Below, in pieces: positions 13,673 through 56,540 of a stretch of DNA of 64,000 nt. The notes under the pieces are model-generated. The model saw only the letters and a list, made by a program, of their open reading frames with translations, had not been told where the DNA came from and ran no database searches. Source of the DNA: Zygnema cylindricum (lineage: Eukaryota; Streptophyta; Zygnematophyceae; Zygnematales; Zygnemataceae); contig JBBHKE010001751.1 in NCBI GenBank assembly GCA_037447655.1, forward strand, positions 1-64,000, read 5' to 3'. The translations under genes and the position numbers were made by a program. Each line of letters starts with the position of its first letter. Position 1 is the first letter of the stretch.

Positions 13673-13713
13673 ACTTCTAGCACTATCACTTAGTGTTCTA
13701 TTTAACCTTTCAG

Positions 13714-19414: not shown

Positions 19415-20631
19415 TTAAACTCTCTCAAGTATCTCCTCTCTCTTTACTTCCCTTATACCTCCAAAAGCACATTGTTGCTTTCGTGAAATTTCTATATGCT
19501 CTTCTCTCTTCCCCATACTACTAATCCGGAGAAGATCTAAAATATATTCATCCTCTTTCTCCTCTTCCCCTTCGTCCTCCTCATCCACATTCCAACTTTT
19601 AAGTTTTTCCAAACAAGGGCATTCCTCCATGTAATGACCCGATTCCCTACAAAAGAAGCAAACCCCCTTTTTCAAAGCTCCCCTTTCTTTTTCGTTCCCT
19701 CTCTTTCCACCAAAGTTCCGATAAGGTTTACATTTGTCTTTCTTCCTCTTATCACGCTTCGGCTCGTCACCACCGTTCCTCTCATCACGCTTGCGCTCGT
19801 CACCACCGTTCCTCTCATCACGCTTCCGCTCGTCACCGTCGTTCCTCTCATCAGGCTTCCGCCAATCACCACCAGCTGAAAATGCATTGCCCCTGTCCCT
19901 TCCCCTACGAAGCTCCAAAGTGCTTTCCCTCACAAGAATTATCCCCATGGTAAAGCTCCAAGTCCATGAAGAGCCATCTATTGCCCGCATACGACAAATG
20001 ATGTTTTCGTACTCATCTGGGAGTTTTATCAGTAGTGTATTAATCTTCCTCTCCTCAGATTCTACATATCCCGCACTAGCAAGCTCAACATATAGTGCAA
20101 CAATATCATTGCAAAACTCTATCATGCTACCGCCTTTATAAATATAGGCATCTATTTCTTGGTTTACTAATTGCTTCCTCTGAATAGTCTTACTCTTATA
20201 AATCTGACTTAGTGCTTCCCATATCTCTGAAGACTTCATTAAGTTTAAAGAGTGATAGCTATGGACTTAGACACGTTTCTAAGTATGAGATGCTTTGCTA
20301 TAGTGTTTTTGTATTCCCATATTTTTCTGTCATTTTCTTCAGTTTTAATCCCTACAAATGGAACCATAGTCGAGAGCTTAGCTCCCCTCACCATCGGTGT
20401 TCCTTTTTCCTTCTCCCATTTTTCCCCATCCACGGAACGGTTTTTCCCTTCACCTTCCGTTGCATCTGAACTCCGGTTGATATTCTGGGCAGCCTCAGAT
20501 GATTCTCCATAGTAAGCTCCTCCAAAGCCAGGTGGTGGACATCTCACTTGTCTCGAAACAATTCCCCATAAATGCTTCTCAAAATAGCAACCCCTCCATA
20601 GTAAACTCCCAATAAATGAAGTCTGTTCCAT
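19415..20631 (-). pseudogene. Copia gag with CCHC knuckle and basic repeat (two frames)
   Basis: Gag starts near 20631 (MEQTSFIGSLLWRG) and covers 128 residues to a stop at 20245; the homologous sequence continues from 20239 (KSSEIWEALSQIYKSKTIQRK), so one small lesion splits it. The long part holds IEFCNDIVALYVELASAGY, LPDEYENIICRM, a charged repeat in which an 11-residue unit built on DERKRDERNGG recurs about three times, and a CCHC knuckle (CFFCRESGHYMEEC). Homology to the full element stops after QQCAFGGI, just before where the protease DSGA loop should come. The charged repeat is absent from the sister gag at 15.1 kb. Confidence 0.82.
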
Positions 20632-21854: not shown

Positions 21855-23723
21855 CAGCATACACGACTGCTAGGTCTCAGACACCAACACAGGTATCCCC
21901 ACACTGGCAGATGCATACCCGTCTAGAAGTTGGCATCACGCAGTAAACTGTTTGCATCAGCTCCTGGTCGAGTATGAGTTGGGTCACTCCTTGATAGCGC
22001 ATGAAAAACTAGCGTTTGCACAAGCCATGGAAGCCATAACAATTAGAACACCTGAAAAAACGACATGGAAATTTGAACCTGGACTAACAAAGACTAAACA
22101 CGAACTTTTAGATGGAGTCACAAACCGACACCTTGACGCATTCGCTTTCTCCATGAAAGACTTAGGACGACACACCACGTACAAAATGTTTATTGACCTG
22201 GAAGATGATAGACCCATATTCAAGCCCAAATATCGTCTATCAGAAACTGAATTGGAATTGGTGGCCAAATGATGCTCGGAATTGGAAGAGGCATGTTTAA
22301 TTTATAGGCCCGATTCCACTTTTGCGGCGCCCACCGTTATGCATCATAAAAAAGACGCAGAGGAAAATTTCACTAAACGCCGTATGTGTGGGGACTATCG
22401 AGAACTAAACTCACATACGATCCAAGACCGACATCTAATGCTGTTGGCAGAGGACATTTTTGATCATGTCGGAGGAGCTAAATATTTTTGTATCCCAGAT
22501 CTGCGACAGGGGTTTAACCAAATCAAGATAGAGGAAAAGGACCGACACAAGACTGCATTTTGGGGTAGTGACGGACGTTGGGAATGGCGGTTATGCCTTT
22601 TGGACTGAAAAATGCACTGGTGGTATTCTAGAAGGTCATGGACTCAGTCTTGGGGGGACGTCAGTTTGCGCGTTGCTATATCGACGATTTGATCATCGCT
22701 TCGGTTACCATAGAGGAACATTCAATTCATATAGAGTGGGTGTTGAAGGAATTAAAAAAGGAAGGACTTAAATGTCATCCTGCCAAATGTACCTTTGGGG
22801 CCGAAGGGGTCCCATACCTTGGGCATTTTATCTCATCTGGGGGAATAACTCCGCTAGAATTCAAAGTGGAAGCAATTAGTAAACAACCGGCCCCAACTGA
22901 TTTGACTAGCTTGCGTGCATTCCTAACGTTAGCCAATTATTATCGTCGGTTTGTTCCTTGTTTTAGCACACTTGCATCTCCACAAAATGAACTCTTGAAG
23001 AAATCAGTCCCATTCACGTGGGGACCCTCTGAGATCGGGGCATTTGAGGGATTAAATGAGGCACTGTCCACCGCTTCCATCCTTCGTCCCCCAAATCAAA
23101 AATTACCGTTTTGTCTACAGACCGGCTTTGTTAAGCCCGTATTGTCGCTATCTTAACTCAACGCGAACTCACATGTGAGGAATATGTGGTGGCCTACGCC
23201 AGTAGAAGCAACAATCAAGCGTAATCAAATTACAGTAGTTACGAGGGAGAATGTTTTGCCGCAGTTTATGGTATTGTGCATTTGCAACATTATATCAATG
23301 GCAAGCCTTTTACCCTTCTTACTGACTATGAACCATTGCATTTTCTTATGACCATTGACAAGCTATATGACAAATTAGCCTGTTGGGCTCTTATTGTACA
23401 TAAATATGATTTAGAAATAATTCATCGACCCGGGCTCCTCAGCTTGAATGCTGACGGGTTCTCCAAGAACCCGTAGCCCAACTCCATTGATAATGGTGTA
23501 CGACAAGATTTTGATGCCGAAACGGTTACCTCCCTATCGGCCAGAGCGCATCTGATTTATAGTTTTGTGTCTCCTACGACTCACAAAACCGAACACGATC
23601 TATGACGGGACAATGCTTTCATTCTCTTTCATTCAACTCAGTTTTTTTCCGGCGAGCACTCTACCAACGGAAGAGGAGCGTGTTCGTAAGAGAGCCCAAA
23701 GTTACTTATGGATGGGGGGCTGA
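21855..23723 (+). pseudogene. Gypsy reverse transcriptase and RNase H
   Basis: The polyprotein resumes after the Copia derivative. The RT entrance reads FKPKYRLSETELELVAK, then a stop, CSELEEACLIYRPDSTFAAPTV, RRMCGDYRELN and IPDLRQGFNQIKI. After a frameshift near 22600 the catalytic box CYIDDLIIAS is intact (22677-22691), followed by the thumb (HPAKCTFGAEGVPYLGHFIS, LRAFLTLANYYRRF). RNase H follows in pieces: VVAYASRSNN, YEGECFAAVYGIVHLQHYI and LLTDYEPLHFLM to a stop at 23476. The 21952-22200 part may contain the C-terminal end of the methyltransferase, which I cannot align. A Copia solo LTR interrupts near 23724. Confidence 0.9.
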
Positions 23724-29835: not shown

Positions 29836-32800
29836 CTGAAAGCGAAGTCGGAGCTGTTAACGATTTCCGAAATTTTTTACTTTTTGAAAAATTGGCGAAC
29901 ATTTGGTGTTCCAGTGGCTACAAAACCACCTGTAAAGCCAGAAAGTAAGATATTCTAGTCAGCTCCTTATCTATGATGAAATTATATCACACTAACGTAA
30001 CAGTATTAACATAACGTACTTCTATTACACAGTACCAGCATACTTAATGCACTAACACACTTAAATTACGCTGGCATACTTATGTTACACTGACATACTT
30101 AATACACTAGCATACTTATGGTGCACTAACATACTTAATACACTAGCATACTTATGTTACTCTAACATACTTAATACACTAGCATACTTATGTTACTCTA
30201 CTTAATACTCTACACCGCCAATCGTTATTAGCGTGTAAGTTTTTTTAGCGTATACAAATAATTAGCGTGGTTTACGCTAATTGGGAATTTGAAAATTTTC
30301 GAAGAAATCGTCTATTCTAATTAGGAATTAGGGCTTTTTTAAATAGTGTGGATAATTCTATTTGAGAATAAAAATACAAAAAAGCGGGACGGAATTAGCG
30401 TACACAACACTAATAACGATTGGCGGTGTAGCATACTTATGGTGCACTAACATACTTAATACACTAGCATACTTATGTTACTCTAACATACTTAATACAC
30501 TAGCATACTTATGTTACTCTAACATACTTAATACACTAGCATACTTATGTTACTCTAACATACTTAATATACTAGCATACTTATGGTGCACTAACATACT
30601 TAATACACTAGCATACTTATGTTACTCTAACATACTTAATACACTAGCATACTTATGGTGCACTAACATACTTAATACAGTAGCATACTTATGTTACTCT
30701 AACATACTTAATACACTAGCATACTTATGTTACTCTAACATACTTAATACACTAGCATACTTATGTTACTCTAACATACTTAATACACTAGCATACTTAT
30801 GTTACACTAACATACTTAATACACTAGCATACTTATGTTACACTGACATTTTTATGTTACTCTAACATGCTGAACACGCCAACATGCTTATAATACTAGC
30901 ATACTTATTATTAATGTTAGCATGCTTATACTAGCATACTAACATTTTTGTAGTACACTAACATAATGCACTAACATGCTTATATTACATTAGTATACTT
31001 ATTATTCACTAACATTCTTTTATTACACTAACATAATGCACTAACACACTTATATTACATTAGGAGACTTATATTACAATTACATACTTATGTTACACTA
31101 GCATGCTCGATATACTAACATAATATATTGCACAGTGTCTCGCTATTAGTGTTAATGTTTTTTTCCGCCACTTGAAACATCTTTTTTCAGTGCACCCTTT
31201 TCGGATTGTTTATCCGACGTTGCAATTGAAAGGCAGGATTCTCACCTGCCAATTGGCGGTCTCCAATAAAAAAGCCGACATTTGTGCAGGGAGCAAAGAT
31301 GTATTAAATGGCGATAATACCATTAACATTAATAGCGATAGTTCACTAACATTCTTGTATTACACTAACATTCTTAATACACTAACACACTTTAACATAC
31401 TTAAGACACTGACGAACTAATATTTCACTAAAATGCTTAATACACTACTTGTATTACCCTGCATACTGAATGCACTAACATACTTTTATTACACTAACAC
31501 ATAAAATAAAACAAAATATACTTTGCTGTGACTCTGGAACGAAATGACTTCCTTAGTTTTTTTTTCTTTTCTTGTTATGCTTATGGTTTGCTGTTCCGAG
31601 TGTTTCATGTTTCAGTCTTTTTATCACGTTTTGGATTCAAAATCTTTTTATGTTTGATTTTTTTGTCAAAATAATTTCCGCTGAGAAGATCAACTATAGT
31701 TCTGGAACTCGCCACCCCTTCCCCTGTCTCTCTCTCCCTCTCTCTCCTCTCTTTCTCTTCCCCTCTCCCTCTCTCTCCTCTCTCTCTGTCTCTCTCCCCC
31801 TCACTCTCCCCTCTCTCTCCATTCTCTCTCCCTTTCTCTCTCTCTTCTCTCTCCTTCACTCTCTCTCCTCTCTCTCCTTTACTCTCTCTCCCCCCTCTCT
31901 CTCTCCTCTCTCTCGCACTCTCCCTCTCTCCCTCTCTTTCTCTCTGAAACAAGTTTTTCTCTTTATGCCTTTTTCCTGACTTCTTTTTCTTCTATTTTGA
32001 ACCATATACTTTTAAGTTACCTTCAATAATTATTATGTAGTCAAACGCTGGTTTGGTGGCCACATGCTTTTGACAGAGTTCCTAGACACATATGCCTTTC
32101 CTGGAAATCGTCAGTTTTATGGATATATGTATTTGGATAAACAGCAAGGTACAACTTGATCACTGAAATATAGTAAAGCTTTATGGATGCATATTGTGTT
32201 GTGTAAACGACAAGAATCTACAGCAGGAATACTTAAATTCAATGAAGTTTTACGAATTTATGTGCATTTGTATAAACGGCAAGGTAAAACAGGATTATTG
32301 GCCAATTCCAGTAATTTCGAATAGTTCTTTACAAATGTTGAATGTAATCTGATGGCGACCGATTCACCAGTTTCCTGCCACATTTTTGCTCTCAAACAAG
32401 GGTTTATGAGGTTTTTATTTAAAAAAAAAGATGTCTAAAGGAGATGTCTGCCATGTCACGGAAAGGTATGTTAGAGGGATCCAACATTTGTCACCGCTGT
32501 TTTACTTATTAATGATTTCGAGTCCCACTTTTGTTTCATCTGCTCATATATGATAATATGTCAGAGCAAAGAGAAAAAAGGCATCTAAACTTGATTATTG
32601 GTTTTGCAGGCGGAACGCTTCTTCTTTACGATAGGAATAAAACTCGTTTGTTTCGGAACGATGGTCATCAGTGGAGAATGAGAATGGATGGAAGAGCTGT
32701 CAATGAAACTCACGCTAATTTTAAGGTATGTTGAATCGACACAATTTATTGGAAACAAAGTGATTGACACTTTTTTTGTAAGGCGAGGTTTGAAATCTTC

Positions 32801-35152
32801 TGTAACTCAATATTTGTCACATTTCAGAAATAGTATAGTCTGCTGCCTTGCTTCTCATTATTCCACAATTTGGGGAAAACATCGCGAGATGTAGTGCTAA
32901 TTGCTCATATATTTGCAATCGGTCTACATTAGAAAAAAAACAAAGCAAAAGAAAAAACCTGCAATATTACTTGTTTATTTTCAAGGGCCAATGATTCTTA
33001 GTTTGCTCTGTATCGTTGTATATTGTTATTTTTTTGAACAGAAAATAGTGTTGACTTTTATGCCGTGTTTTTTTTTCGTCTTTTGTTTCGATACAGATTG
33101 ATGGATCATTGGCCGTGGCTTGTTATTACAACCACTTGGAACAGGACCATGATTTTCAAAGACAAACTTATTTTTTGTTGGACAAGTATGTGATTATATT
33201 TTTGTCAATCTTTCTTTATTTCTCACATTTGTTTAACTTTTTATGTGCTGTTATCCATTGTTATCCATTGTTATCTGTTATAATGGATATCTGACATCGG
33301 AAGTACATGCAAAAAAGGTAAAATATGTGAATGTTTGTGGTTATTTCTAACATCTTGTTTCATTGTTTTATATTTATAAGCAGACCAGAAAACAAGAACT
33401 TTGTCCTTGTCCATTATCTCAAAACGAAGGTGCGATTTTTTCGAATCTTTTACTCCACTTTTTTTTTGACATACAGTTGGCCAAAGCAATGATAATCTTC
33501 TGAAGGATTGTCGCTTTTTCTCGCTTTTCTTTGGCATGGAACTTTTTTGATTTGTTTCTTAACTGAATGCAAATTTTGGATTTGATTCAAATTATGGATT
33601 CGATTGAAATTTTGGTTTCAATTCAAATCATGGATTCAATCGAAATCATGGATTTGATTGAAATTATGGATTCGGTTGAAATTATGGAATCGATTAAAAT
33701 TATGGATTCCATTGAGATCGTGGTTTTCATTAAAATTATGGTTCTGACTCAAATTATGGTTTTGATTCAATTTATGGATTTTATTTTGCAACAGGGAAAT
33801 CGAAAGAATGCATCAATTTCGAAAGGACGACCGAGACTTAATCCACTTTCAAATAAAAATCATTCGGAAACTTCCCTAGGAAAACTGCCTCTTGATTTAA
33901 ATAAAGGGAAGGAGGAGGAAGATATTGGGAAGGAGGAGGAGGATGTTGGGAAGAATTTTCAGGAGGAAAGTGAAAGAAATGAAAGAAATGAAGAAAATAA
34001 AAATGAAAAATGGGAACCTCCAACCATTGCCACGAGGATTGACTTATCGGAAAAAGGTAATCAAAGCAGTGAATGAAAATTAATAGAAAAATCATAGATT
34101 TTTTGGAGAGAAGTGATTATGGGAGTGGAGTAAAATATTGACTTACATGAAAAGAGATATTAAGGCAGTGTAAGGATTTCTTTTCAGGAACAAAAATGAA
34201 CGTAAAAAAATGCTCGTGGAAGAGATTATAAAAAACTCCTTTCGTAAAAAAATCAAAATTTTCAACCCAAAGTTATATCATTCACAAATAAAATCCTCAA
34301 ACTTCCTTATTTAAAATAAAATAAAATTTTAATAGCCTCCAAATGAAAGTCAACTAGATCGCAAACTACAAACATTTGTACCCCGAGACTTTCCCACTTT
34401 TTTTTTTTCCCTAACAACTATTCTTTCTCTCCTTCCCTCTTCGCATGCTTTCGATCATTTCTTCTTTTTTTTTTTGAACAGTTAACTCTGAAGTTCTTTG
34501 CAATTTCATCTCCGTCTTTCCGTTTTTCTGCGTAGACATTCCGTACAAATGTCTTTCCAGTTTCGGTTTCAGTTTCCGTTTCTGTCTCCGTTTCAATTTT
34601 TGTTTTTTTGGCACAAAAAAAAAACGAGAAAGAAAAAGAAAGAAAGGAGATATTGAATGAACTTATCACCATTTACCTCATGTAACATTGTTTTAAAAAA
34701 AAAGCAGATGTTTTGACATTTGAAAGAATGGAGTGGTAAGGGAATTTTGAATAATTGACTTTTATTTTTTTTCCTGGTTTCACTGCAGATCAGTCTCATT
34801 CATCTTCTTCTCAAGTAAGTGAGAATCAAAAACTTCCTTTTTTAAACATAAATCCTTCTAGAAAAGTTAAAAAAATGACCATACTACAAAATTCAAACAT
34901 TTAATTTTTGGTCAACTTTTTCCTGTTGGTCAATGTGCAGACGAAGAATAATAAAAAATATTGTATGGTATATAAATTTGGTTTTGTCTGGTGTTATCTA
35001 TCAGTGCCGTTTTTTTTTTTTTTGATTTTTTTGCTGTTTTGTCGCTGTATCTGGAGTCTTCTGAATGAAATTTCAACCTTTCCGCAAGATTTCTGTTACG
35101 CTGGTTTTTTTTTGCATATATTTCTCTTCTTTCTCTCTCTCTCTCTCTTTCA

Positions 35153-35184
<32 letters not shown>

Positions 35185-38100
35185 TGCTCTTGATTTTTGC
35201 TCTCTGTTTTTTTTCTTCTTTGTCTTTTTTTACATTATAGATTTATGCTCCAGATTCGGCAAGACAACCAATCATTGAAGATTTTAAAAGAAGGAAACGT
35301 AAAAGTACAGAAAGTGAGAACCAGTGGTCTTCCTGCCTCCCTCCTCCTCCCTCTCTCTCTCAAGCGGAAGCCATGAAGTCATATTTGTGTGAAAAGGCAA
35401 AAACAAAGTTGCTCGACAATGTGGAGATTTTGTATATTTTGATTTATTTTGAAGAACTTCGTTTCGAATTGAAAACGACAACATCAGAAATTCTAGAAAG
35501 TGAGTTTTTTGTTATGTGAAATTTGAGTTCCTTACGTGAAATTTTGAAGTGCACTTTCTTTATAATATTTTATTTATAAGAAATACATGTCCTCTGTTTA
35601 GACCATAGTCTCCAAATTTTAAAATTGTGGGTTCTAAAACACGAATGTTTAAATAATATTCAAATTGGAATTCAAAGGTAATTGAATTGTCGATTAAAAA
35701 TTGTTAAGAAATCCAGAAAAAACAAAATATGGCTAACGAGAATCGACCTCTAATTGGTTGTTATGTTGTTGGGTAATAAATGGAAGGGGGAAGGGGGGGG
35801 GGGAGAGGAGAAGGAGAAGGAGAGGGAGAGGGAGAGAGAGGGGGAGGGGAGGGAGGGGGAGAGGGAGAAGGAGAGGGAGAAGGAGAGGGAGAGGGGGGAG
35901 GAAGAGGGAGGGGGAGAGGATTTTTATTTTCTTGGGCTCTTTCCTTTATTCCCTTCTCTTTTCCTCTGCTAATATAAATTTAGCTGCTGAGAAAGTTGGT
36001 GATAGTTGCGGTATGGTATTCTTATATGGTATATAATCAATATTGTTCTTATATGGTAGTCGATAGACTTCCGAAATCTACCAGACTGTAATCATCAATA
36101 CAAATTATTTTTTTCTTTGGAAAACCCAATTCCATGTGGCGACCAATGGTTGACTATTGGATTCATATTTTCTCCCCCTATTTATTGGTCGAATATTTCT
36201 TACCTGTCAGAATCTCGTCCACTATTTCTTCAAATGTCGTTTTAGGCGTTGCCTCTATTCCATTTTTTGGAAAATTGTGTATAACCTGTCTGTTACATCA
36301 AATATTGTGGTGTGAACCATTTTGTATAGAATAATTTCATCCAAGTTTCATGTGGATGGCATGTTGTTCTGTTTTAATATCCAACCATTTGTCTGTTTAA
36401 GAGGGTCCCTCTTTTTTTTTTTTCCTGGACTGATGTTTTTTTTCTACCAAAAACATGGACAGACGAGGACAGTAAATGAAATCTACTGCGTCTCTCCAAA
36501 TACCAAAATTGAGTAGATAAAGCTAGAAACAATTAGAAACAGGCATGCCATTTTTGTTATGTGTGATGTTAAGGGAGGTCAAGTAGTGTTGAGAAACGAT
36601 TAGGAAAGGTGGAGGGATATTGAGGGATATTGAGGTATGATAAAGAAATATTAGAAACTTTGGACGCACATCGAGGGACGTGGAGAAATGTTGAAGGGAC
36701 AATGAGAATATTTAGGGAAACATTGAAGGGACATGGAGTGCCATTTTGTGATCATCAATACTTGTTGAGAAATATTTAGGAAACAGTGGACAGATTTTTG
36801 AGGGACGTTGAGAAATGCTAAAGGAACAGTGAAATCATATTGATGGGACATGGAGAATATTAGGGAAAGATTGAAGGGAAATGGAGAATATTTAGGGAAA
36901 GGTTGAAGGGACATGGAAGGATATTGAGATATGATGAATTGGAAACATCCGAAGGGACATGAAAGGAAAATTGGAAATATTTACAGAAACATTGAATGGA
37001 TATTGAGGGTATTTAGGGAGTATTGAAAGAAACCAAGAATATTTAGGGAACATTTTAAGGACTTTGAAAATATTTAGGGGAGCAAAGAAGGGACATCTGG
37101 AACATATAGGGAAGATTGGGGAACATTGAGAATATGTAGGGAAACATTGGAGGAATATTGAGAGTATTTAGGGAACATTGGCTGAAAATTGAGAGTATTT
37201 AGTTAACATTGAGGAGACATTGAAAACAGAGAAAAAACTGGTAATTTTTGCCGATTATGTCCAGAAAAGGAGTAAAATAGGCGTAGTGCGTTAAGAGTTT
37301 TTAGCACTCTCCTTTTGTGCGTATAATACGGCGTAAACTGCCGCACTGTTTTTCTACTATCGCGGATTTTAGGGAACATTGAAGGAATGTTGAGAATATT
37401 TAGGGAACATTGGGGGGACAATTGAGAATATTTTTTAGGGAAACTTTGAACCATATTAGGACTATTTAGGGAACATTGAAGGGACTTTGAGAGCCATTTG
37501 TGATCATTAAGACTACATCCATCGCTATTGGAGTAAAGGAATAATGAGTGTAAATGCGAAATTAGAATGTATAATTCTAATTTTGTGTATTAGTTTCCTG
37601 TTATTTAATTTTTGCGTGACAAAAAAGCGCCATAATTTAAATTTATGTTGTTTCGTTTACGTTGTTCTAAACTTATCCTTTTTTGGAATTTCCAAAAACT
37701 TAAATAACTGAGTCATAAAGTAAGCTACGCTGGTAATTTCCTTATTTGGATGAAAAAGATTAGTTTAAAAACTTCTTCAAAATGAACATTTGAATGGCAA
37801 TATTGGTGTGACCAATGGTCTGAATCTATAGAGATTTTGGACTTTTTATGAAATTGGGACATTTTATGCCTCCCTGTTTTTTCACATTCTGGTATTGATT
37901 TATCGTCTCTGTTTTCTAATTGGTTGTCATTTATCGATATTTGTTTTGCAGGTGATCATATTTTCCTTTTCACTAAAAACTGTGGCCACTCATTTTGTGA
38001 CAATCCTGTCTGGAAAGGAAAACTTCATAAACAAATCTACCATCCAACTCATGAGGAACTTATGGCAAGTAATTCAACACAAAATTAAATAATAATACTA

Positions 38101-40699
38101 ATATCCACATTTTTATGCAGTTAAGTGTGTGATTCAATGCTTTAGGCACTTACTACCAATTCCTTTATCGTCTCTAGTTTGGTTTTTCGGAAGTTTTAGG
38201 TGTTGTATTTTTCAAATTAAAGCTTGTTTTCAATTCTTGTCAGCTATATTTTAAATATTCAATAAATTCGCTTTTGATGTTTAATTGTTTGGTCTTTCAT
38301 TCACTTCCGGAGGAAGTTTTATTTTCTAGCGTTTGTGAAAAGAGCGCCTGTTGGTCTTTGTTTGACCTTTGTTTTTTTGTTTTTTTCCTGTTGGTTTTTG
38401 TTTGACCTTTGTTTTTTTGTTTTTTTTTTTTTATACATATCTTCTTCTTTGGTCAGGTTTCGGGACAAAAGGTGTTTGAGTGTTGTTTTATGGAAGGAGA
38501 AAGTAAAGATGGTTGGTTACACCAACGTTATCAATTCTGGTTGCCTGCCGAAAATCCTTTAGAAACGTATGTTTAAAATGACAACTAATGTATTGCTTTT
38601 TATTTCTTTTGTTGGGAATGTTTGTTTAAAAAGTAAAATTATGTTTTGCTTTTTTTTATATCTTTGGGGAATGCAAGTATGAACTTGTGTATTGCATTGA
38701 TTTCTTATATCGGTGTTTGTTTTTTATATATTCTCTTAGTTAATGACAATCACGTCATATATGCTATTTGATTTCAATTTTTGGGTTTTATGTTAGATGC
38801 CTGGAAAGAACGTTTAGAGACGCTAGGAAGGAATATGGTAACTTCAAAGGAGAGACAGTTTTGTCGAAATAATATAAAATCTCTTGTTTCCACATTAATG
38901 ATGTGTTTAAACGTCAAATTTGCTTCTGAGATTGGGATTTTTTGAGGGTTTCTCTTTATTGATAGACTGAGAAAGATTCTGTAAAAGTTAGCCATAACAG
39001 AAAAGTTCAATTTTCAAATGTTCAATTTACCTCTAACTTTTTATTTATTTTTGTTTTTTCTGTATATGTAGGCATAAAATTATACTCGTTCATTACCTCA
39101 AATCATGTTTGGAGGTAAGAAATATGAGCGAAATTTCACTATACCTCTGTGTAGTTTTTGTCAAAAAAATGCTTTCAGTTTCTTTTAGTTTTCGTTTGTC
39201 ACATAAAAATGGCTAAAAATGTCTAAATTCTTGTAGCTAAGAATCCAGAAAACTTAACGTTTATACTAGTTTATATTCGTATTGATGCTTGCAAAATGTA
39301 TGAATGTATGGCACTTGTATGATTTTTATGATTCAATGAGATATCTTGTCATCGGTTTGAAGTTAAATATTAAAATGTTTTCTGGTCAGTCCTGGTGCAT
39401 TTTAAATTCAGTAAAAAAAAGTGTTTGAATTCAGTAGGAAATTAGTGTTTGAATGTGACAATATTTTATCAGGTAGAAAAAGTACATGACATATATATAT
39501 TTTCTTATTACTAAGACAGCTGTAGATTTGTCAGAGACGCATTATGTTGTAATTGTATCAATAATTAAAAGAAGCTCGAGGTACACCAATAAGAGACGTT
39601 GAACTTGCAATATTTTTTTTGACAAGAATTGATTCGATTTTATGGAGTTAGTGGGTGAGGAGAATGGGAATGGAAATCAAACCCGGAAAAATAAGAGAAC
39701 AAAAATCTAGATTAGATTGTGAAAAGAAAGTTACTTGTACGCTGGGAAATAACTGTGGAATGAAATTTACTGAACCCTCCATCTTTCCCCTTTTAACCTT
39801 TTCTGAATCTCACAGGAAGAAAAATGATATTTTCTTTGTTTGATTTCTTTGGTTTGTCCCGCAATTGTTTTTATTCCTTAACGTCTTTTCGACGTGAAAT
39901 GTAATTTTACGCCTTTCCTGAATCTACTGCAGCCCAAATGACAAATCAGCAAAGGAAACAGTAATACAGAACGTGAGTACCCTCTCCCTTACTCTCACTC
40001 TCCCTGTCTCTCCCACTCCTTCACCTCTCTCTCCTTCTCTTCTTTTCCCTCTCCCCTTCCCCTCTCCTCCCCTTTCCCTCATCCCCCTCTTTAACGTCAT
40101 ACTCGCCATGTTTTTTATTCATGCTGACATCATCCTTTTGCCAAAATATGCTTCCTGTTATTTTTGTTTTTGTCTCCTTCTCCTCCTGATCCCAAAATCA
40201 ACTTTTTCTTCGAATTGACTTTGATCGTTATTTTTCCAAAAATGGGAATTTTTGTCCTTGTTAATATAGGCTCTCAGAAAATGCCATTACTACATTTACT
40301 TGTACAGAAATTTTAATTGTCATCGTGGAAACTGTTTAACAATTGATGGAGTAGAATCAATACTGAAAGTTTTTATTGACTTGAAATAACTTTGCTTAAT
40401 ATTGAAAGGACCGATGGGAGTATTCCGTGTATGGTTTTGAAAACCTAAATTTTGTCGAACGTGAATGAATAATCTTCCTGTTTTTTCTTCTCCTTCCTTT
40501 TTCTCCTTTTCTTTTCACAGGATTTGGTCTTCGGTGAAAACATGTCTAAATTCCTGTTTTTCCTTCTCGCTCCCCTACTTTTTTTTTTTTTTTCTTTCAC
40601 AGGATTTGACCTTCTTTTTAAATGTCGTTGGAAAAAAAAACGAAGTAGCTGACAATCTCGATAAAAGCCTCGAAAGAGAGCCTGAGGTCACCGATCAAG
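29836..40699 (+). CDS. Tandem CG-1-domain gene (CAMTA-like), spliced
   Basis: No long ORF exists, but exons with good splice sites rebuild two CG-1 DNA-binding domains. First domain: exons 29836-29944, 32610-32725, 33097-33185, 33384-33429. Linker: 33795-34056, 34789-34814, probably 34941-34967. Second domain: 35241-35499, 37952-38064, 38457-38566, 39072-39114. A further exon is likely at 40603-40699. Landmarks of the first: SEIFYFLKNW, LFRNDGHQWR, CYYNHLEQ, DFQRQTYFLL, VLVHYL. The second is more divergent: ILYILIYFEELRF, ESDHIFLFTKN, HEELM, ECCFMEGE, LHQRYQFWL, IILVHYL. Intron positions and phases (1, 0, 2, 0) equal those of the CAMTA gene at 45.7-53.0 kb, and two exons have identical lengths (116 and 89). 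No TIG, ankyrin or IQ part is seen. CG-1 domains bind CGCG-type DNA; whether these diverged ones do is unknown. The 5' start (possibly ATG at 29548) and the 3' end are unresolved. Confidence 0.72.
30212..30432. mobile_element. MITE inserted in the 36-bp satellite, TA target duplication
   Basis: The left end CACCGCCAATCGTTATTAG and right end CTAATAACGATTGGCGGTG are perfect inverted repeats, each flanked by TA. The array unit normally reads CACTAGCATAC; the insertion splits it exactly at TA, so neighbouring units serve as an empty site. The interior is AT-rich and non-coding. Confidence 0.9.
31134..31345. mobile_element. Degenerate MITE of the CACCGC family
   Basis: TCGCTATTAGTGTTAATG near 31140 pairs with CATTAACATTAATAGCGA at 31321-31338. 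The interior shares GCCACTTGAAACATCTTTT with the hairpin copy at 29011-29250. Outer TIR bases are mutated. Confidence 0.7.
31720..31950. repeat. (CT)n-rich low-complexity tract
   Basis: About 230 bp built almost only of CTCTCTCCCT-type sequence in the first large intron of the tandem CG-1 gene. ORFs in both directions here are low-complexity artefacts. Confidence 0.95.
33567..33790 (+). repeat. Imperfect 18-bp repeat in an intron
   Basis: Roughly a dozen variants of ATTATGGATTCGATTGAA run up to the acceptor of the linker exon at 33795. They keep one frame open and so give a false N-terminal extension to that exon. Confidence 0.85.
35800..35925. repeat. Purine-only (GGGAGA)n tract
   Basis: Plus-strand purine tract of about 125 bp in the intron between the first two exons of the second CG-1 domain. 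All ORFs over it consist of Glu, Gly and Arg only. Confidence 0.95.
36560..37500. repeat. Degenerate intronic repeat, unit about 30-35 bp
   Basis: Units vary around GAATATTTAGGGAAACATTG followed by AAGGGACATTGA. About 25 diverged units are visible, interrupted at about 37215-37370 by unrelated sequence (GTAAAATAGGCGTAGTGCG, GCGTATAATACGGCGTAAAC). The array occupies much of the 2.45-kb intron inside the second CG-1 domain. Confidence 0.85.
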
Positions 40700-44612: not shown

Positions 44613-45703
44613 CACACCTTAATGGGTCGGACAAGTTACAAAGCCCCAAAACCTCCTATATTACCGGAGCTTGGGCAAGGCGGAAAGTAAGGAGGAATAG
44701 TGAAGGAAATGGCGAGCTTACACAACCATGTCTTTCACCGAAATCGCTCCTCTAAGCCCGTCCCAACTTGCCTGGGTGAACTCCAAATGAGCATCGTCGT
44801 TAGTATCGTTCTGCGAGAGGAAATAGTCAAGTTTCTAATGTTTGTGCATTTTATTCTAATTCTTGCTACTTTACAGCTGACATGCTCATGAGACCCAAGC
44901 AACATCCTCCTCCAGCGTACATGCATAAGTCTCCTTAATCTCTTTTCATTCAAACTATATCTCTCTTTCTCTCCTTTGTTGTCTTGTACAAATCAACACA
45001 CTCTCCGTCATTTGATCCACTCGTCAACCACTACCTATATCTAGCTTCCTACAACGTTCATCTTACTTCCTTGTCCTCTTTCCTCACATTTTGATTTAGA
45101 TCCCTCCAAAAACGTGGTTGCGTTTGTCCAAGTGCTAATTATACGGTCACAAAAAGTTGACATTGAAACAAAATTGGCTTTTGCTATTCTCACCAACATT
45201 GTTGTTATCAACGAAATTTAAAATTGTGGATGTCGAACAAGAGTACGCACCATTTGGGCAGAAACATGTACACGAAAACCCAATAACATCGATCTACTGA
45301 GAGAACTATGCTTATACTTCTTCTGAAAATGAAAATTATCATTGGCTCTGAGTCTAGTTATTTTAAGATACATATCGATAATCATGTCTTATCATATACC
45401 AGATAATAACAGGTGATCACCATCAGAAGTTACAGGTGATTTTGTGCATCGTGAATATATGGAGAAGACAAACAGAATGTACCATAGTGCAGCTCATTTT
45501 TTCAGAGATGTTGAACGATATTATTTAGATGACAATCGTTTAACTTTCTGTGAAGAAACGATTTATGTTTAACACATTGCCAAGTGTGGCTGACAAGGGC
45601 ATACATCTTTGTGAGAGAACAGACTTAGAGAGAAGAGGAAGAGGGAGAAACCGCAGAAGAGAGCTGAGAGATAAGAGAGAGAGAGCATGGGAGGGAGTAC
45701 CTT
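44613..45703. other. Region downstream of CAMTA, no supported gene
   Basis: Nothing coding is supported. Part of it next to 45703 should be the CAMTA 3' UTR (minus strand). A purine-rich stretch (AGAGAGAAGAGGAAGAGGGAG) lies at about 45625-45690. Confidence 0.5.
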
Positions 45704-48700
45704 CTAAGTTAGATCCTGTCCTTTTTGTAGCGCTGCGTACTGCATTCTCCCACTTAAAGATGGCACTAAAGTGGTCAAATGACCAAGAGCCCTTTGCAAT
45801 CCGGCTCCTTTACCACCAACATTTTTCCAATCATCGTGCCCTCCTAATTTAGGCAATTCACGAGGAATGAGTTCTTGAGGAAGGGGATGAACCACCAAAG
45901 CGCCTTCTATTTGGGCGGGTTTTCCACGATGAGGCAAATTGTCCATGAAAGAGAGCCCCTTTGATCGTCTCCTCCATCGAAGAATGACCTTTTCTACAAT
46001 TCCGACAGCAAATCGTAGCTTCAGGAATCTCTGGCGCGCCAATTTACCTCTCGCAAGTGACTGCCCCCCATTGACACACAAAAGACTTGACATTAGAGTC
46101 AGGACTCGGAAAGAAACAAGCAATATTATATGAAAATGATGGAGAGAATATACATTTTCCTCGATTCCGGAAGTAGAAAAGAAATTGTTCTATCGCAGGT
46201 AATGTTAAGAAAAACCACGAGTATAAAAAATATGTGAATTTTCTTTTCTGCCACAAATCATGCATTAGAGGCTCACGAAAAAAAGCGGAAGCAGTCTACA
46301 CACAAAACTTGGATAAGGGGCAAGCGTGCACACCATGTACCATATACTATATACCATATACCATATACCATGTAACATATACCATATAACATATACCATA
46401 TACCATATACCATATACCATATACCACATACCACATTCCATATTGTGGCATCTAAGGAAAGTCGATATTCAAGCAGATCCATATTATTACTAAACAAAAA
46501 GGAATAATGAACACATAAAGAAGATAAAACAAGGGGGAGGCCTCAGTATCTTCATCAATATGGCATGGGCCATCTCACTCCAGAAAAAAACACACAAATA
46601 CCTCCTTTTTACTCACCCAATGAAACCGGAATAAAACCTGACACTGAGAATGTCTTAGCCAATACAGACCAACCTGGTAAAATCTCTCTCTTTTTAAACG
46701 GAGATCTCACAACACACCTGAAGGTAAATTACTTTCTGACGGAGTGTCTGAAAATGTGCGCGGTCCTTGTACCCGCGATAGTGCTGCTGTATCTTTAAAG
46801 CAGCTGCTTGCCGGTCCTTTGGGGCGATATTCTTCATTAAGTTGTTTAAAAACTCTGCCCCAGCCTCTATCTCGAACGCTACCTCATCAGTCTTCACAAC
46901 TTCCACCCAATCCACTCCTAATTTTCTTATCGAATACTTCCGATCCACACATTTAATCAATTCTGCCGCTTCTGCACTTTTTTTTATCCTTTCTTCCATC
47001 CCAACATCTATAACCGGCCCAACCACATCACGACATTTATTGACAGCAGCCATTCCTGCTTTCTCAACTTTGTCTTTTATCGACATAGAAGACAATTGAG
47101 AGTAAGGAATTTGCTTTGCTGCATCGTCTAAAGTTTTTTCAGCCAATCGAGCTGCAATTCCCTTATGTCCACTCCAACTTGCTAAATCGGCTGGTGTGGC
47201 CCCTTCCGGATAATCGGGTCTCTTAACTAGTGGGGCAGGCATAGCTCCGGCGTCTAAAAGGCTTATAATAACTTTTTCCCTGTTGTGAAACAACCAAGTG
47301 AGCAATAGTGAGCGACAACATCCATCTCTCCAAAGCAGCAACAAAAAAGGAAAAAGAAAAAAAATAAAAGGGAAGGGAAGAGGGAGGGGTTGGAGGGACG
47401 GAGGGAGAGGGGGATGGATCGGATCAAATGATGGAACGGATCAGTACTGGGAAAACAAGGAAACATTCAAAAATACAAAAGTGATATCAAACGCGCCATT
47501 AAACACAAGTTACAATATCTCCCTTGTTTTGCCCTTTAGAAGACTTAAACGTACGTTTCTTCACCAAAACGGAATTCACGTATTTGCCAAGGCAAAAAAG
47601 AAACAAAGCAGAAAACAGAAAAATAGAAAAAGAAACTGAAAACAAAAACATCCTAATACCTGCCATTGGCGGCTGCCCAATGAAGCGCTGTTCTCCCTCG
47701 TCCATCCGGTAAATCCACACTCTCCATTTTCCTTGCCAACATAGGAATCGCCCAATCATACCCAAGTGCCGCCACCATATGTATGGCTGCCAGTCCGCCA
47801 TAATCCTCCTGCTTCAACCGTGCCTCAGCATCCGGTCCTTTGACCCAATTTGCCAATTTTTCTCGCAACAACATCACCATAAGCTTCTCTTGGACAAACC
47901 CTGAGGAGGTTTCCCCCTTTGATATCTCCTCCAACCATGCCCAATCTCCTCCAACATCCGAATCTGTACTGGTACTACTGCCGAAATTCTCCTCTCCCTG
48001 AGACTGCATTAACAGATGCACCAACCGAACTTGCAGATTCTCGTCGCTCTCCTGTACATTCGACTTCACTTCAGGACTGTTCCCGTATTCGACTTGTGAG
48101 ATGTTACTACAAGGAAGACCGTCGTCTAACGTCACAGAAAACCTAACAGTTCCAGCCACATGCGGAGGGGCGTGACATTTGAGCACGCCAGGATGAATCA
48201 TTTCAGCTGGTACCAACTCGTTATCGAACATAACTTCCCACTTGTGATTTTTGTCCACCTCCGTCTTTCCGACTATTAAAACCTGCAAGTGCATAATTCA
48301 CAAGTTTATAAGTGAGTGCCCACAATTCAAATGGTCATGTTTGACAAGACCCACAGTAACAACCTTAATCATCCTCGCCGAATAGTCTGCTGATGGGGCA
48401 GAGTAGTCGATGGATTACCATAACAGGTGAAAAAACCAAGTCAATCGATAACTAAATCACATTTATTCCAAAAATGCTGGCAAACGATTTGAACTGATGA
48501 CATCAACACGGTATTTTGTGAAATAAACCATCATACTGCGATCTGCTTCAAATGCATTAATGAGTGAACATTTACAAGATTTTCCAGCATAGGTAAAAGT
48601 AAACGTATAAATTTACTCATCTCCATTATAAAGCTCTTGTTTTTTAATCTCCAGTCTTTTGATCATGATACTTCATGAAATGTGAGAAAAAAGAGCTTGT

Positions 48701-51700
48701 GAAGCGAAATTTTTAACATTAAAATTTATAGCGGGATACGATGACGTGTTTCTTCCAGGGCCACGAGAATTAGAAAACCATACAAAAGTAAACATTTTTA
48801 TGCATGATCATGTCTCACTCTCTTTGTAAGGGTGTGAAAATCACCTTAGTGCCACCCTCTGTACTGCAGGTGACAGGGGAAAAATCGTTCACTTCAAACA
48901 AAACATGAGACGGTTCCTCCATGAAAACTGGAGACCAAGTGTTGGTGAAGGGGCCAGCGTCGGCTTGCTCTCCATACAACTCATTCGCCCACTTACCAAA
49001 ACTTTCTAGTTTGGGAAAATCCGAGAGTTGAGACCAATTTCCAAAACTACCGCCTCTGCCTAAGGAGTTTCTTCCCATAGAGTTTCTCCCCAACGAGGTT
49101 TTCCCAATAGAATCGAGGCGCATGTCCTCCACTATAGCAGGAATAATACCATCCAAATATTCCTCATTTTGCGCATCCTCTTCAAAACTACTTTCAAGGC
49201 TCGATTCTCTTTCTGCTAGATCGTCAAATCCACTCTGTACATCAGCAAATTAAATAAACTAAGACAAGTGTTAGTAGTCAACCAACCTCAAAAAGTCACA
49301 GTAGTGAAACATGGTAAATCTATAATCAGCATCAATCCAAAAAAGTTTTAAAACGTCTGAAATATTGCAGTGATATCGCGGACCAAAGAACAGGGCCATC
49401 GAATCATCATCAACCTATTACGCCCAAAAACAGAGTGGAACCAAACTACGGGTATCTAATTAGACTATAAAAGGAAAAGGAGTGTTATGAACCTACCAAC
49501 ATTGGTTTTGAAGGGCCATGTTCCATGCGGCCTCCCAAGGATCTTGTAAAAAAGCCTCTCACCGATTGGTTAGGCCGCTGCTCATATAAAAAATCCTCAA
49601 TAACATCAAGTTAGACCATACCTAAAATCCTAGAAAATAAGAATCATAACCACAATAAACTCATATAACCGCGAACTGGCCTCTAATTAAAAAACTAGAT
49701 AAGTTATTACTGCCGGGCAAGAACATTGATTGATCCGTGACGTCGGAGGGGGAAAAAACAACACGAAAAATAATCGACAAAGAAATCAACACCTTCTCAC
49801 CTCAAGTTCAGACTGGAAGACTCTGCTATCCAAATTCTCAGGCTGCTCAGGTTTTATTCTTGCGAATCCATTGCTTTCTGGAGAGATTTCATGAAATCTC
49901 TGTTGTACCTGTTGTGTTCCATTATCCCAAGTCGCACTAATACCAAGATTATTATGGTTACCATCAAAGCCTTCGATGGGTTGAACTACATTCATCGCCA
50001 CTTGATCCAAGCCTGCAAAAAGAGACAGTATGCAAAAATGAAGAAGATAATTCCCAATAAAAAAACAGGCAGCTTGACTCGGCCACTTCTAGTTTTAGTC
50101 ACGTATTCCATTTGCAGATATGCATAAACTAAATTAAAATCCAAAAATACTATCTAACACAGAGCAAGAGGCAAAGGGCAACGATTTGGTAGCCCACACA
50201 TCCCAGAAGGCTCAATTCCAACAAAAGATTTTGTCGTTGCAACAGAATAAGCAGCTTGAAACAAAATTCCAGCAAACTTTGATATACTAACTGTAAACAC
50301 GAATTCAATATCAGTGGGCAATGTCATCGCAAAGAAAATCCAAGAGCAATGTTATCAACAATAGTTTGACTCATTCTATCATTTCCACAGATTTGTTAAA
50401 AAACATCCAGCAAATCAACGGCTGGGCTTGTACCACTGACCTATTTGACCTAAATTTTCAAGTTGAGTGTCAGCCAGAGTCTGGTGAATTTGTTGGGAAA
50501 ACATTTTGGTCTGCTCATTCAACTGTGACCAGAAGGATCTCGGGGTTTCTGTTAACAGCGGTCCAACCCCTCCAAAATGGGTTTCAAGATGGGTCGATGC
50601 CTCGTCAATTTCTGGTCTTTCATCGTCTTCCCAACCCATTTCCTCGTCATCGCTCTCAAGACTAATTCCTACGTCTAAAGATTTTTGGGACTGTTCGAAG
50701 CTATTTTCAGAAGCTGAGCAAGCTATATTTGACCGATTTTCCGGTGTTGCTACATGCCTCAGTCGACTAATGGCCTGGAAAAAACAAAATGCACAACATT
50801 GATGAGACATTTGCGCAATCAAATGAGCCAGGACATCTCTCTCAAAAAAGCGAAACAATTTGTCACAAACAATAACCTTCGCAAGCAAGTATCTGAATTA
50901 AAAAACAAACTTGTACTAACGTGAAATAAGTAGGTCAGTACCTTGTCAACCTCGAGATAGTGAACTAGAACAATCCTTCTCCTGCAGAAATGAAATAAGA
51001 TAGCATGTTATTTCATGTTCGTGAAACAAGATCTTAACGGATGAGAAATACAGGGGAGCTTAATAGACATCATTTGTCTCAACCGTCTAAAAGAATGGAA
51101 ACCCCCATAGTACGGATGCACAATTTTTTTTCCAATCTTCCCGACCACCTTTCATTGTACTTTACTTGCTCCATCAACATACAAACAATACAACAAAAAC
51201 AGGAAAACACATGTACAATCGATCGCCAACAGAGACAATCGACAAAAAAAGAAAAAAGCCAACAAAAGCCTAAACGAAGAGACATAAACCATAACAATCT
51301 CTTGAAACCTGTTCAGTTAACATGAACATGGAACGCACTCTGCCAATCGCCAATAAACACGTCTCTGGAGAAGACAGTCCCCCTCTCCGTGCGCATAATA
51401 ACAAGCGAGCATTTGCTCACTTACTACCTGCAAATGGAAGATCAGAAACAAATTAATCACCATTAGGTCATTTTACAGAGGTTAACCAACACACCTTGTT
51501 TCAGAAAAGAATCAACAAATCATAAACAAGTATGAGCACCAACCCAACTTCACTCACTAAATAACAATGGCACTACCTGATACTAAGCCAGCTGCAAACG
51601 TCTTGAAGTGAAAAGAATATAGACAGAATATGTCACATATAGACCCACTATGAAGCTCACCATCAATAGTTTGGAAGGAAGAATCCCAGTATCGATGGGG

Positions 51701-52961
51701 CAATAGTAAAAGCTGAAACACCTCATGTACAAAATATAAGGGTTTACATACGCTTACAATCCAAACACATTGTATTTAGTGCATACTGGATCCAAGGGAT
51801 GTCCCAGCCTCAAAGATAGGCAACCGGAATTACTATGTTCCAAATATTTTCATTATGATATAACATTTTTCCCTGTAATACGAAACTTACCTTGAGCTTC
51901 TCGTGTGCCTCTTTGACGGTTCTCCCGTCCGGCTTCTTTCGCCAATTATGGCCATCTTTTCGATAATACCGTTGCACTTTACAGTCAAAAAGAAAGAGCT
52001 TTCCACCTGCAAAAGCAGTCTTGAACTAGATCCACTCAAACGGTGAAAAAGAAAGCAATAAATTTTATCTTTTAAAGAAGTAAACTTGAAGACACGACCA
52101 TTGCAAAAACGCTTAAAAATACAAAACAATCGTTAATGCAGGAAGGGAGGGACAGATTGCTAGATTCATTCTGTATAAAAACTATCTAGCACAAAATGAA
52201 AACCTTCCTTCCAGTTCAAAAAGGAACATATCGTTTTTAATGGTGTGGAAACTCACTCTCTGGCCTGTCAGGAGGATTCTCATTTAGATGGAAATGGTAC
52301 TCTTGAAAATTTTCCAAAATATCCAAAACTTCGGCAGGTTTCAACCAGCGATTCGTAGCTTCAACAAGCACTTGCCGGATGTCCATGGTGTCTATGTGGC
52401 AGAAAGCAACAAAACCACAAACAAAAGAAGAAGGAAGAGAAATGAATACAACTTCAACAACATGACTAAATGACATGATTAAATATCGTTTATGAAAGTC
52501 ATAAACAGAGAGAAAAAGAAAAGGAAATGACTTTAACTTCAATAACATGACTCACTATTAAATTATGCAGCAACCAGTGATCAACTTAGGATAGTGAGAA
52601 CAACCAAAAGTTGACCATTTCGGTTAAAAAGGAGCAGGAATCAACTGAGAAAAAAGCTTACTAGAGCCAGATTCATCAGCTATTTTCAAATACGCAAATT
52701 TATTTGCAAAAGCAAATACGGAAGAGTGTTTTAGGGTTTCAAGTTCAATTGCAGGATTGTCTTCATCTATAGTAAAAGCAGGAAAAAAAAGCAAAAGTCA
52801 GAGAGAGAAGGAAAGAGAAATAGAGAGAGGAGACAGAGAGAAGGAGAAATGTCGATACTAGACTCTACTACAGCCGGACTTACAGCCTTTCCCTGGAAAC
52901 ACGGATCCACCTGCTCACCTGGTCCTTTTTTGTCCGCAAGACTTCCTTGACTTGGCGCCAT
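45704..52961 (-). CDS. CAMTA: Calmodulin-binding transcription activator (CAMTA), 12 exons, about 1001 residues
   Basis: Calcium/calmodulin-responsive transcription factor of the nucleus. Exons in transcript order: 52919-52961, 52662-52766, 52257-52391, 51891-52006, 51339-51427, 50942-50981, 50441-50774, 49801-50012, 48845-49234, 47660-48282, 46718-47279, 45704-46060; together 3006 nt and in frame throughout. The CG-1 domain spans exons 3-6 (NRWLKPAEVLDIL, KLFLFDCKVQRYYRKDGHNW, ACYYAHGEG, LLQRRVYW, IVLVHYLEV). Exons 7-9 form an acidic linker rich in Ser and Glu. A TIG/IPT fold begins VNDFSPVTCSTEGGTK and crosses into exon 10. Ankyrin repeats follow (AAIHMVAALGYDW, GRTALHWAAANGR, GATPADLASWSGHKG). 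IQ motifs are ALKIQQHYRGYKDR and LQSLARGKLARQRF, then the calmodulin-binding helix VGIVEKVILRWRRRSKG. Length and order are typical of plant CAMTAs. The start at MAPSQG uses donor CCAG|GTGAGC, which keeps the frame into exon 2. All key motifs are intact; it looks functional. Confidence 0.93.
46334..46445. repeat. Short tandem repeat in the last CAMTA intron
   Basis: Variants of the 7-mer CCATATA and ACCATATACCATATAC repeat for about 110 bp inside the intron between exons 11 and 12 of CAMTA. It is outside any coding exon. Confidence 0.9.
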
Positions 52962-54587: not shown

Positions 54588-56540
54588 TTACTCCAAATCT
54601 ACGTCAAACATGTCTTCATCAAACTCCTCTTCTCCTACCTCCCCTTCCTCTTCCTCCCATGCTACCAATTCCTCTTCATAACTAACATCCCTAGTGTTCT
54701 GTAATAATCTGAGATTGCTAAAGACCCAAACCAAATCATTGGCTCTTTTAGCTGTCAACCTGTTCCTTTTCTAAGAGTGAATATGGTCATAGGTTGACCA
54801 ATTCCTTTCACATGAGCTGGCAACTGTACATTGTGCAAGGATCCTAATTGCTATTTTCCGTAAAGTAGGGGTGAAAGACCCGAACTGCTGCCACCACTTC
54901 CACCCCGGCATATCTTTAGCACAAGTTTTTGTCACTTCCCTCCCAAATATGCCCTCAAAGCCTTTATACTTAGACAAATCGGAGTAGGCCGCAGCCTGAT
55001 CCGCCACATTTGGTAACATCTTATCGAGCATTATTTGAAAACCTTCCATTACTTCCACATTTGAAAGTTGATCATACTTATTACTTTGGTACTCGGGATC
55101 GAGTACAAAGCCGGCAGCATATATAGGGCTATGTGCCATCTCCCATATGGCGATGAAAGACACCTTCAGCTCCTCCAAAATCTGCAGTCTTTCGTAAATT
55201 CGTGCTCCTCCATTGCTGGATAAATTCACTAAGAAATCCCCAATAGTGTAAAAACCATGATAAACCTTCCCCACGTTTGGCCTCCCTTTGTCGCACTCCC
55301 TCCTCATTCGCACTACAGGTTCAGAAACTGTCACAGCCTCAGTCACTCTCGTCCAAAACTTTGGGTTTAAGATATGGCCTTTAATCTTAACACCCTCTAA
55401 CTTGTATGTAGACTTCAATAACCACTGTTTGTAAGCATCATCAAACATCAACATCTCCAAGCTATCTTTCACATGTAAAAACCTCTGTAGCATGATGAAA
55501 TTTGTAGCAAACCTGGTCTCTCCAAGTTTCAAAAGCCTAAGTTTGGAGATTTTGTTGAACAAGGGTGTAGTCATATGATGATTCATGATAAATTTCAACA
55601 CCTCCTTCGCCTCTCGGACAGGTGTTGAAATAAATGATAACTTGCCCCAATCCTCCAACATTAGGTCCAATACGTGGGCAGCACATGGCGTCCACGTGAT
55701 GGAAGGATACTTTTCCACGAGCATCGAGGCGGCAGCCTTGTTCACAGGAGCAGAATCCGTCACAATTTGTACCACATGTTGGACCCCCACCGCAATAACT
55801 CCTTTCTCTAACACTTGACAAACATATTCAGCATCCTTAATTTTCCCTCGAGTGTCTTCCGCCTGGAGAAACATGTCACTTTTGGGGGTGACAGCTAGAA
55901 TGTTTAGGAGAGGCGTATCGTCAACCGCCGTCCAACCGTCAGATGTGATGGAGGCACCGGTGACTTTTATGGTCTCATAGTAGCTTGCCAAATCGCTAGT
56001 GATCGCTGTTTTCGTCTCAGACAGAAGGCGATTTCTCATGGTATTCCTGTGAGGTAACTTGTAATATGACCGTATATCCCTGGTCTTCTTCACTGCTGCC
56101 TTAAAGTATGGGTCGTCCAATAGCCGAAACGGTAAACCATTGGCAAAGAAAGCCTTTGCCCATGCTACATCCACCTCTTTTTGGTTATGCATATTGAATA
56201 CACTATTTATTTTGGTCTAAACACCTTGTATCTTACTACTCTGGCTAGATCCAGGACATCTAGTGAGTTCATCCAAATCGGATATGACACGTTTCCGACA
56301 GCCATGATAAGATTTTGCGGTCTCCGATGCATTTAACTCCGCTTGCACTTCATCCGGACATAAAATGCAAGCTCTAATGCCCCCACTTTTAATATTTCCT
56401 AGCAGATGGTTCCTAATCCTAGTTGCTTGACCATTGTATTCAAAATTGCAGTATATACAGATGCATATTTTGTTATTCCCAAGCAACTCTCCTTCTGGAG
56501 GCTTAACGTGCTCCCACTCGATTCCTCGTGGCCTAGGCAT
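54588..56540 (-). pseudogene. hAT-superfamily transposase with BED zinc finger, two in-frame TAG codons
   Basis: Cut-and-paste transposase. The frame opens at 56540 (MPRPRGIEWEHVKPP) with a BED-type finger: CIYCNFEYNG followed by RIRNHLLG. A TAG at 56217-56219 ends this part, and the same frame continues (TKINSVFNMHNQKEVDVAW). The long 473-residue stretch holds a DUF659-like region (ASITSDGWTAVDDTPLLNIL, VVQIVTDSAPVNKAA, WTPCAAHVLDLMLEDWGKL) with acidic positions of the RNase H-like core, and the C-terminal hAT dimerisation motif (AQCTVASSCERNWSTYDHIHS). A second TAG at 54771-54773 is followed in frame by KRNRLTAKRANDLVW and an acidic tail to 54588. The two stops are the only clear lesions, so the copy died recently or the upstream stop lies in an unrecognised intron. 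Confidence 0.88.

Follow-up and report, generated by a model that had tools for sequence, protein, structure and literature searches.

The window, a 64,000-nucleotide stretch of the Zygnema cylindricum contig C1313, appears to hold a nuclear gene on its plus strand (29836-39114) for a CG-1 protein that would carry a tandem pair of CG-1 domains in a single chain and no TIG, ankyrin or IQ part. Taken jointly with the proposal that the second CG-1 is a partner domain, we give this reading of the sequence about an even chance of being right. CAMTAs connect calcium signals to stress genes. Descriptions of plant CAMTAs list CG-1 and ankyrin parts together with an IQ and a calmodulin-binding part (PMC4770041), and the window itself contains a CAMTA gene, which we used as a yardstick. 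The eight short exons that the original prediction assembled into two tandem CG-1 domains are all present in the sequence, but two linker exons between them had been overlooked, as had the fact that the gene is a member of a family:

29836..29944, plus strand: exon A, N-terminal part of the first CG-1 domain (109 nt), homologous to CAMTA exon 1
32610..32725, plus strand: exon B, first CG-1 domain, with DGHxW (116 nt)
33097..33185, plus strand: exon C, first CG-1 domain, with CYY and FQR (89 nt)
33384..33429, plus strand: exon D, first CG-1 domain, with VLVHYL (46 nt)
33795..34056, plus strand: exon E, linker, phase 0 in and phase 1 out, donor gtaatc, the same in the C376 relative described below
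34789..34814, plus strand: exon F, linker micro-exon of 26 nt, entered in phase 1 and left in phase 0
35241..35499, plus strand: exon G, pre-domain stretch and start of the second CG-1 domain
37952..38064, plus strand: exon H, second CG-1 domain, with an inferred GC donor
38457..38566, plus strand: exon I, second CG-1 domain, with LHQRY
39072..39114, plus strand: exon J, second CG-1 domain, with ILVHYLKS
40603..40699, plus strand: tentative exon K, phase 0 in, proposed from splice sites and an open frame only, with no support from a relative
44700..52386, minus strand: neighbouring CAMTA gene (CG-1, TIG, ankyrin, IQ), convergent, 3' end approximate

Both CG-1 exon sets are split in phases 1, 0, 2, 0. 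As predicted, this is the pattern of the window CAMTA, whose CG-1 exons lie at 52386-50942 on the minus strand and whose exons 2 and 3 (116 and 89 nt) match exons B and C in length. The spliced gene is free of stop codons from exon A to exon J, including linker exons E and F. Upstream of exon A the same frame stays open to 29713, in a stretch rich in serine and proline, and the exon may start further upstream in it. Domain 1 may be N-terminal, as CG-1 is in CAMTAs; searches of the sequence for a start codon and a 3' end found neither. Tandem arrays of a 36-base unit lie between exons A and B, within the intron (30050-31104), one of them with 11.7 copies at 30429-30849 and 94% matches. Elsewhere in the window are Copia-type retroelement frames (11423-15180, minus strand; RVT_2, integrase core and gag_pre-integrs), other retroelement pieces (19415-20266 and 22632-23156) and, upstream of the CAMTA gene, a hAT-type transposase frame (54771-56216, minus strand; DUF659 and Dimer_Tnp_hAT).

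The Pfam CG-1 profile (PF03859), the check suggested with the prediction, matches the spliced protein in two stretches with 153.2 bits, the best being residues 3-118. The second domain of the window gene alone scores 44.8 bits (E 1.2e-11, cut-off 23.5 bits), which rules out chance as the explanation of its score. TIG, ankyrin and IQ parts were searched for with the corresponding parts of the window CAMTA at E 0.05, in open pieces of at least 15 residues across the fetched stretches. No match was found on the window plus strand, in agreement with the prediction that these parts are absent after the CG-1 pair.

A Pfam CG-1 search of the whole assembly (352.8 Mb, 2689 contigs) returned at least 36 exon matches at E 0.001, and the matches covering exon B fall at at least 27 places. 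We fetched sequence for 18 of these 27; the other nine places are C728, C2429, C307, C121 at 549.7 kb, C1109, C1514, C316, C1730 and C677. Two of the loci have the same layout as the window gene: on the minus strands of C376 (about 244.3-238.3 kb) and C1828 (about 247.5-242.3 kb), exons A to J occur in the same order and phases, free of stop codons. Linker exons E and F keep their order and phases at all three loci, within a gap between exons D and G of 1.8 kb in the window gene and 1.3 kb in the other two. Exon A is homologous among the three genes, and exon G has a common pre-domain motif, W..C.PPP....AE..KS. The counterpart of exon F measures 164 nt in C376 and C1828 versus 26 nt in the window gene, and the exon H donor is GT in those two genes versus the inferred GC at the same place in the window. 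Upstream of exon A, C376 has a serine/proline-rich stretch similar to that of the window which reaches a methionine, while the N-terminal methionine of C1828 lies in a frame other than that of exon A. Exons B to J of C1828 and C376 are 92-100% identical, and the two genes are possibly haplotypes. The Pfam search found one exon-B place on C1828 and three on C376, so C1828 is not a plain copy of the whole C376 stretch.

Searching the genome with domain 2 of the window gene returned these three loci and, besides them, partial copies on the C376 plus strand and on C2053; C1979 gave a weak match (E 0.26). Domain 2 of C376 as query added no locus. Loose exon-A- and exon-B-like CG-1 pieces lie on the C376 plus strand at 230700-232500, as signs of gene birth and decay. 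A further pair occurs at C1163:41746-48384, where two complete CG-1 units stand in tandem. Its second unit is open in a single frame, shares the phases and has an exon B of 116 nt; it lacks DGHxW, has CYN instead of CYY, and resembles the first C1163 domain. Alone, this second domain scores 60.1 bits with the Pfam profile; that of C376 scores 15.9 bits, below the cut-off.

TIG, ankyrin and IQ matches in the fetched stretches were confined to the CAMTA on C1313 and both CG-1 genes on C178. None was found in the stretches fetched near C1898, C1163, C1515, C2069, C2261, C2183, C2254, C75 and C376. The stretches from C121, C1828 and C2053 and the second C376 piece were short (~6-10 kb), with just 0.65 kb read downstream of the C1828 gene, and absence carries little weight there. 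The two CAMTA genes on C178 (19100-54413) stand head to head, and the plus-strand one has a stop codon between two matched ankyrin pieces. A CG-1-only gene at C1898:325079-325791 has three tandem copies of exon C, and no exon A was found for it.

We built a tree from 20 CG-1 domains of the Zygnema cylindricum genome, with five database CAMTAs as the outgroup. Excluded were C2261 (a near-copy of C2069), the interrupted C121 place at 572 kb, the nine unread places, and the incomplete copies and stray pieces of the C376 plus strand and C2053. The 15 domains outside the CAMTA group form one CG-1-only clade (96/93), which contains all two-CG-1 loci and is proposed, from the sequences, to have arisen beside the same genome's own CAMTAs. 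The CAMTA group also includes C2183 and the plus-strand C121 gene, and the search for TIG, ankyrin and IQ parts found none beside C2183 (20 kb) or within 1.3 kb past the exon B match of C121. Genes in which these parts are lost or absent therefore occur outside the CG-1-only clade too.

The second domains of the C1313, C376 and C1828 genes form one clade (100/100) on a long stem, which indicates that the CG-1 pair is older than the divergence between the C1313 and C376 genes. In C1163 the second domain clusters instead with the first domains of C1163 and C1898 (95/94). This second pair thus arose independently, and a single origin of all two-CG-1 loci is ruled out for C1163. A grouping of domains 1 and 2 of the C1313, C376 and C1828 genes as one clade is not the best tree and is not rejected (p-AU 0.386).

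We compared the three genes for signs of constraint, which bear on the most serious alternative: that the gene is turning into a pseudogene, in its second domain or as a whole. Between C1313 and C376, domain 1 is identical at 64 of 118 residues (dN/dS 0.26), the part encoded by exons G to J at 66 of 146 (dN/dS 0.64) and the linker at 24 of 94. The domain-2 core has a pN/pS of 0.69, a value as low being reached in 35 of 2000 neutral runs, and for domain 1 none of 2000 runs gave a ratio as low as that observed. The third-position excess of domain 2 is not significant (reached in 227 of 2000 neutral runs). Under simulated neutral drift, the 147-codon second-domain part kept an open frame in 2 of 5000 runs at d 0.68; at d 0.3 it did so in 26 of 5000. 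The recent pair, C376 and C1828, differs by 3 synonymous and 13 nonsynonymous changes in the domain-2 part (ratio 1.18); no constraint is seen there or in the linker, and the ratio for domain 1 is 0.56. Constraint on domain 2 is thus visible over the long term but weak, and absent in the recent pair. That absence fits a decaying gene, as do the GC donor of exon H, the fact that no start codon was found and the broken or partial relatives: in the C376 plus-strand copy the frame is offset within exon I and a domain 1 was not found in 7.3 kb upstream, and on C2053 the 7 kb examined yielded exons I and J alone. Set against this are the ten exons open at three loci, the long-term retention of frame and pN/pS values under the neutral expectation in both domains between C1313 and C376, and we consider decay improbable, though it is the likeliest of the alternatives. 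The second domain would instead already have existed when the C1313 and C376 genes diverged, and its frame would have been kept ever since.

A less probable alternative is that two neighbouring genes with one CG-1 domain each only appear to be joined. In favour of such an arrangement, C1163 has two whole CG-1 units in tandem, and an open frame resembling a linker, similar in both cases, comes after each. Possible internal starts also exist: in C376 and C1828 an in-frame ATG lies just upstream of exon F as read, and exon G of the window gene contains an ATG. Exon G of C376 and C1828, however, has no in-frame ATG, and the gap between exons D and G holds, at each of the three loci, linker exons of constant order and phase. 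The donor of exon E and the pre-domain motif are likewise conserved, all of which speaks for one chain.

We wondered what the second domain retains of the residues by which CG-1 binds DNA. For CAMTA3, the mutants W26A, W75A, H88A, YY102/103AA and Y132A are reported to lose DNA binding, while W118A retained weak binding (PMC10417383). All five sites are kept in domain 1 of C376 and C1828. In domain 1 of the window gene, the predicted signatures DGHxW, CYY, FQR and VLVHYL are found and the equivalents of W75, H88, YY102/103 and Y132 are kept, but that of W26, which the prediction had passed over, is a leucine. The second domain of all three genes has leucine in place of W26 and CF or CL in place of YY102/103, and keeps the equivalents of W75, H88 and Y132. 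The prediction that this domain keeps only the framework was therefore right about the framework and too sparing about the rest, the residues like H88 and W75 being kept as well. Net charge also separates the two domains: it is -5, -3 and 0 for domain 2 of the three genes and +6, +7 and +8 for domain 1.

These substitutions weigh on a further alternative, by which domain 2 would be a second DNA-binding domain of altered specificity and the protein would read two sites. The retained W75, H88 and Y132 equivalents would suit this, as would a signature particular to domain 2 (C..PVWK, DG.LHQRY and LVHYLKS) that is conserved over the three genes, two of which are close copies. Yet W26 and both YY102/103 sites are lost and the charge is acidic to neutral in three of three genes, which leaves this possibility no stronger than that of two adjoining genes. 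A chance pair of adjacent fragments is made unlikely by two more loci with the ten-exon layout and linker phases, and chance in general was rejected on the Pfam scores together with the three parallel loci.

The reading of these sequences that we hold, with middling confidence, is a CG-1 protein that has no calcium-sensing parts and uses its second CG-1 domain as a partner domain. Domain 1 would probably dock on CGCG-type DNA, with the W26 equivalent lost in the window copy, and domain 2 is probably unable to bind DNA in the usual way. The conserved core of domain 2 and its own conserved signature suggest a partner role, in which it may serve as a built-in domain that pairs with domain 1 or with a CG-1 in a different protein. 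For the Drosophila CAMTA, a review calls CG-1 dimerization crucial, citing a paper titled on a potential dimerization region (PMC13290587). Presumed to lack calmodulin-binding parts, the two-CG-1 protein would be blind to calcium and is proposed to sit on CAMTA targets free of calcium/calmodulin control, and there it could tune or block CAMTAs at shared sites. More tentatively, and with the odds rather against it, the fusion of a CG-1 pseudodomain to a CG-1 domain might mark a lineage-specific, calcium-blind CAMTA branch, formed by at least two tandem duplications, in which the pairing domain tethers or blocks CAMTAs.

A CG-1-only clade, some of whose members have a second CG-1 depleted of key residues, suggests that the DNA-binding part can escape calcium control and double. 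The zygnematophyte source of these genes bears on stress-signal networks near the origin of land plants, and a natural CG-1 pair in one chain makes the role of self-association by CG-1 testable.

Database searches with the 423-residue model and with the three-gene alignment returned no protein at E 0.01 among entries sharing words with the query and of 0.55-1.75 times its length, a rule under which full CAMTAs could not appear and which limits this negative. A control CAMTA query of the same database matched 938 proteins, and the 120 listed include entries from land plants and from EukProt. Among solved structures, a CAMTA CG-1 query gave no CG-1 relative, the matches being two unrelated proteins at E 0.35 and 0.62.

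The original prediction knew of no described protein with two CG-1 domains, and this does not stand: an additional CG-1 is reported for both CAMTA1 and CAMTA2 of Nicotiana benthamiana (PMC6037683). Tobacco thus already provides a printed precedent for a protein with a second CG-1 domain, and what seems new here is a pair without TIG, ankyrin and IQ, for which no report was found in the portions of the CAMTA literature covered by our search. Besides the two tobacco proteins, the same portions describe a single N-terminal CG-1 linked to ankyrin and calmodulin-binding parts. Compared by description, NbenCAMTA1 and NbenCAMTA2 share the additional CG-1 with the window gene and differ in being full CAMTAs, with a CG-1 'interrupted by extra stretch of amino acids' (PMC6037683). 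Rice OsCAMTAPL is likewise described as a family member missing a part, and acts with a full CAMTA; the part it lacks, however, is the CG-1 DNA-binding domain (PMC11084498), whereas the window gene shows CG-1 only. Other genes of the same clade and genome are CG-1-only as well (C2254, C1515, C2069 and others): the stretches fetched for them showed one CG-1 domain each, and the search there for TIG, ankyrin and IQ parts gave nothing. In C2254 the CG-1 domain is followed after 2 kb not by a second domain but by an open frame (160327-161079) with a strongly acidic end and then a stop, which resembles an activation region and may be the last exon of that gene. With CAMTAs themselves, the window gene shares the CG-1 domain and the intron places and phases of the window CAMTA; it differs in having two CG-1 domains, the second without key DNA-binding residues, and no TIG, ankyrin or IQ part found.
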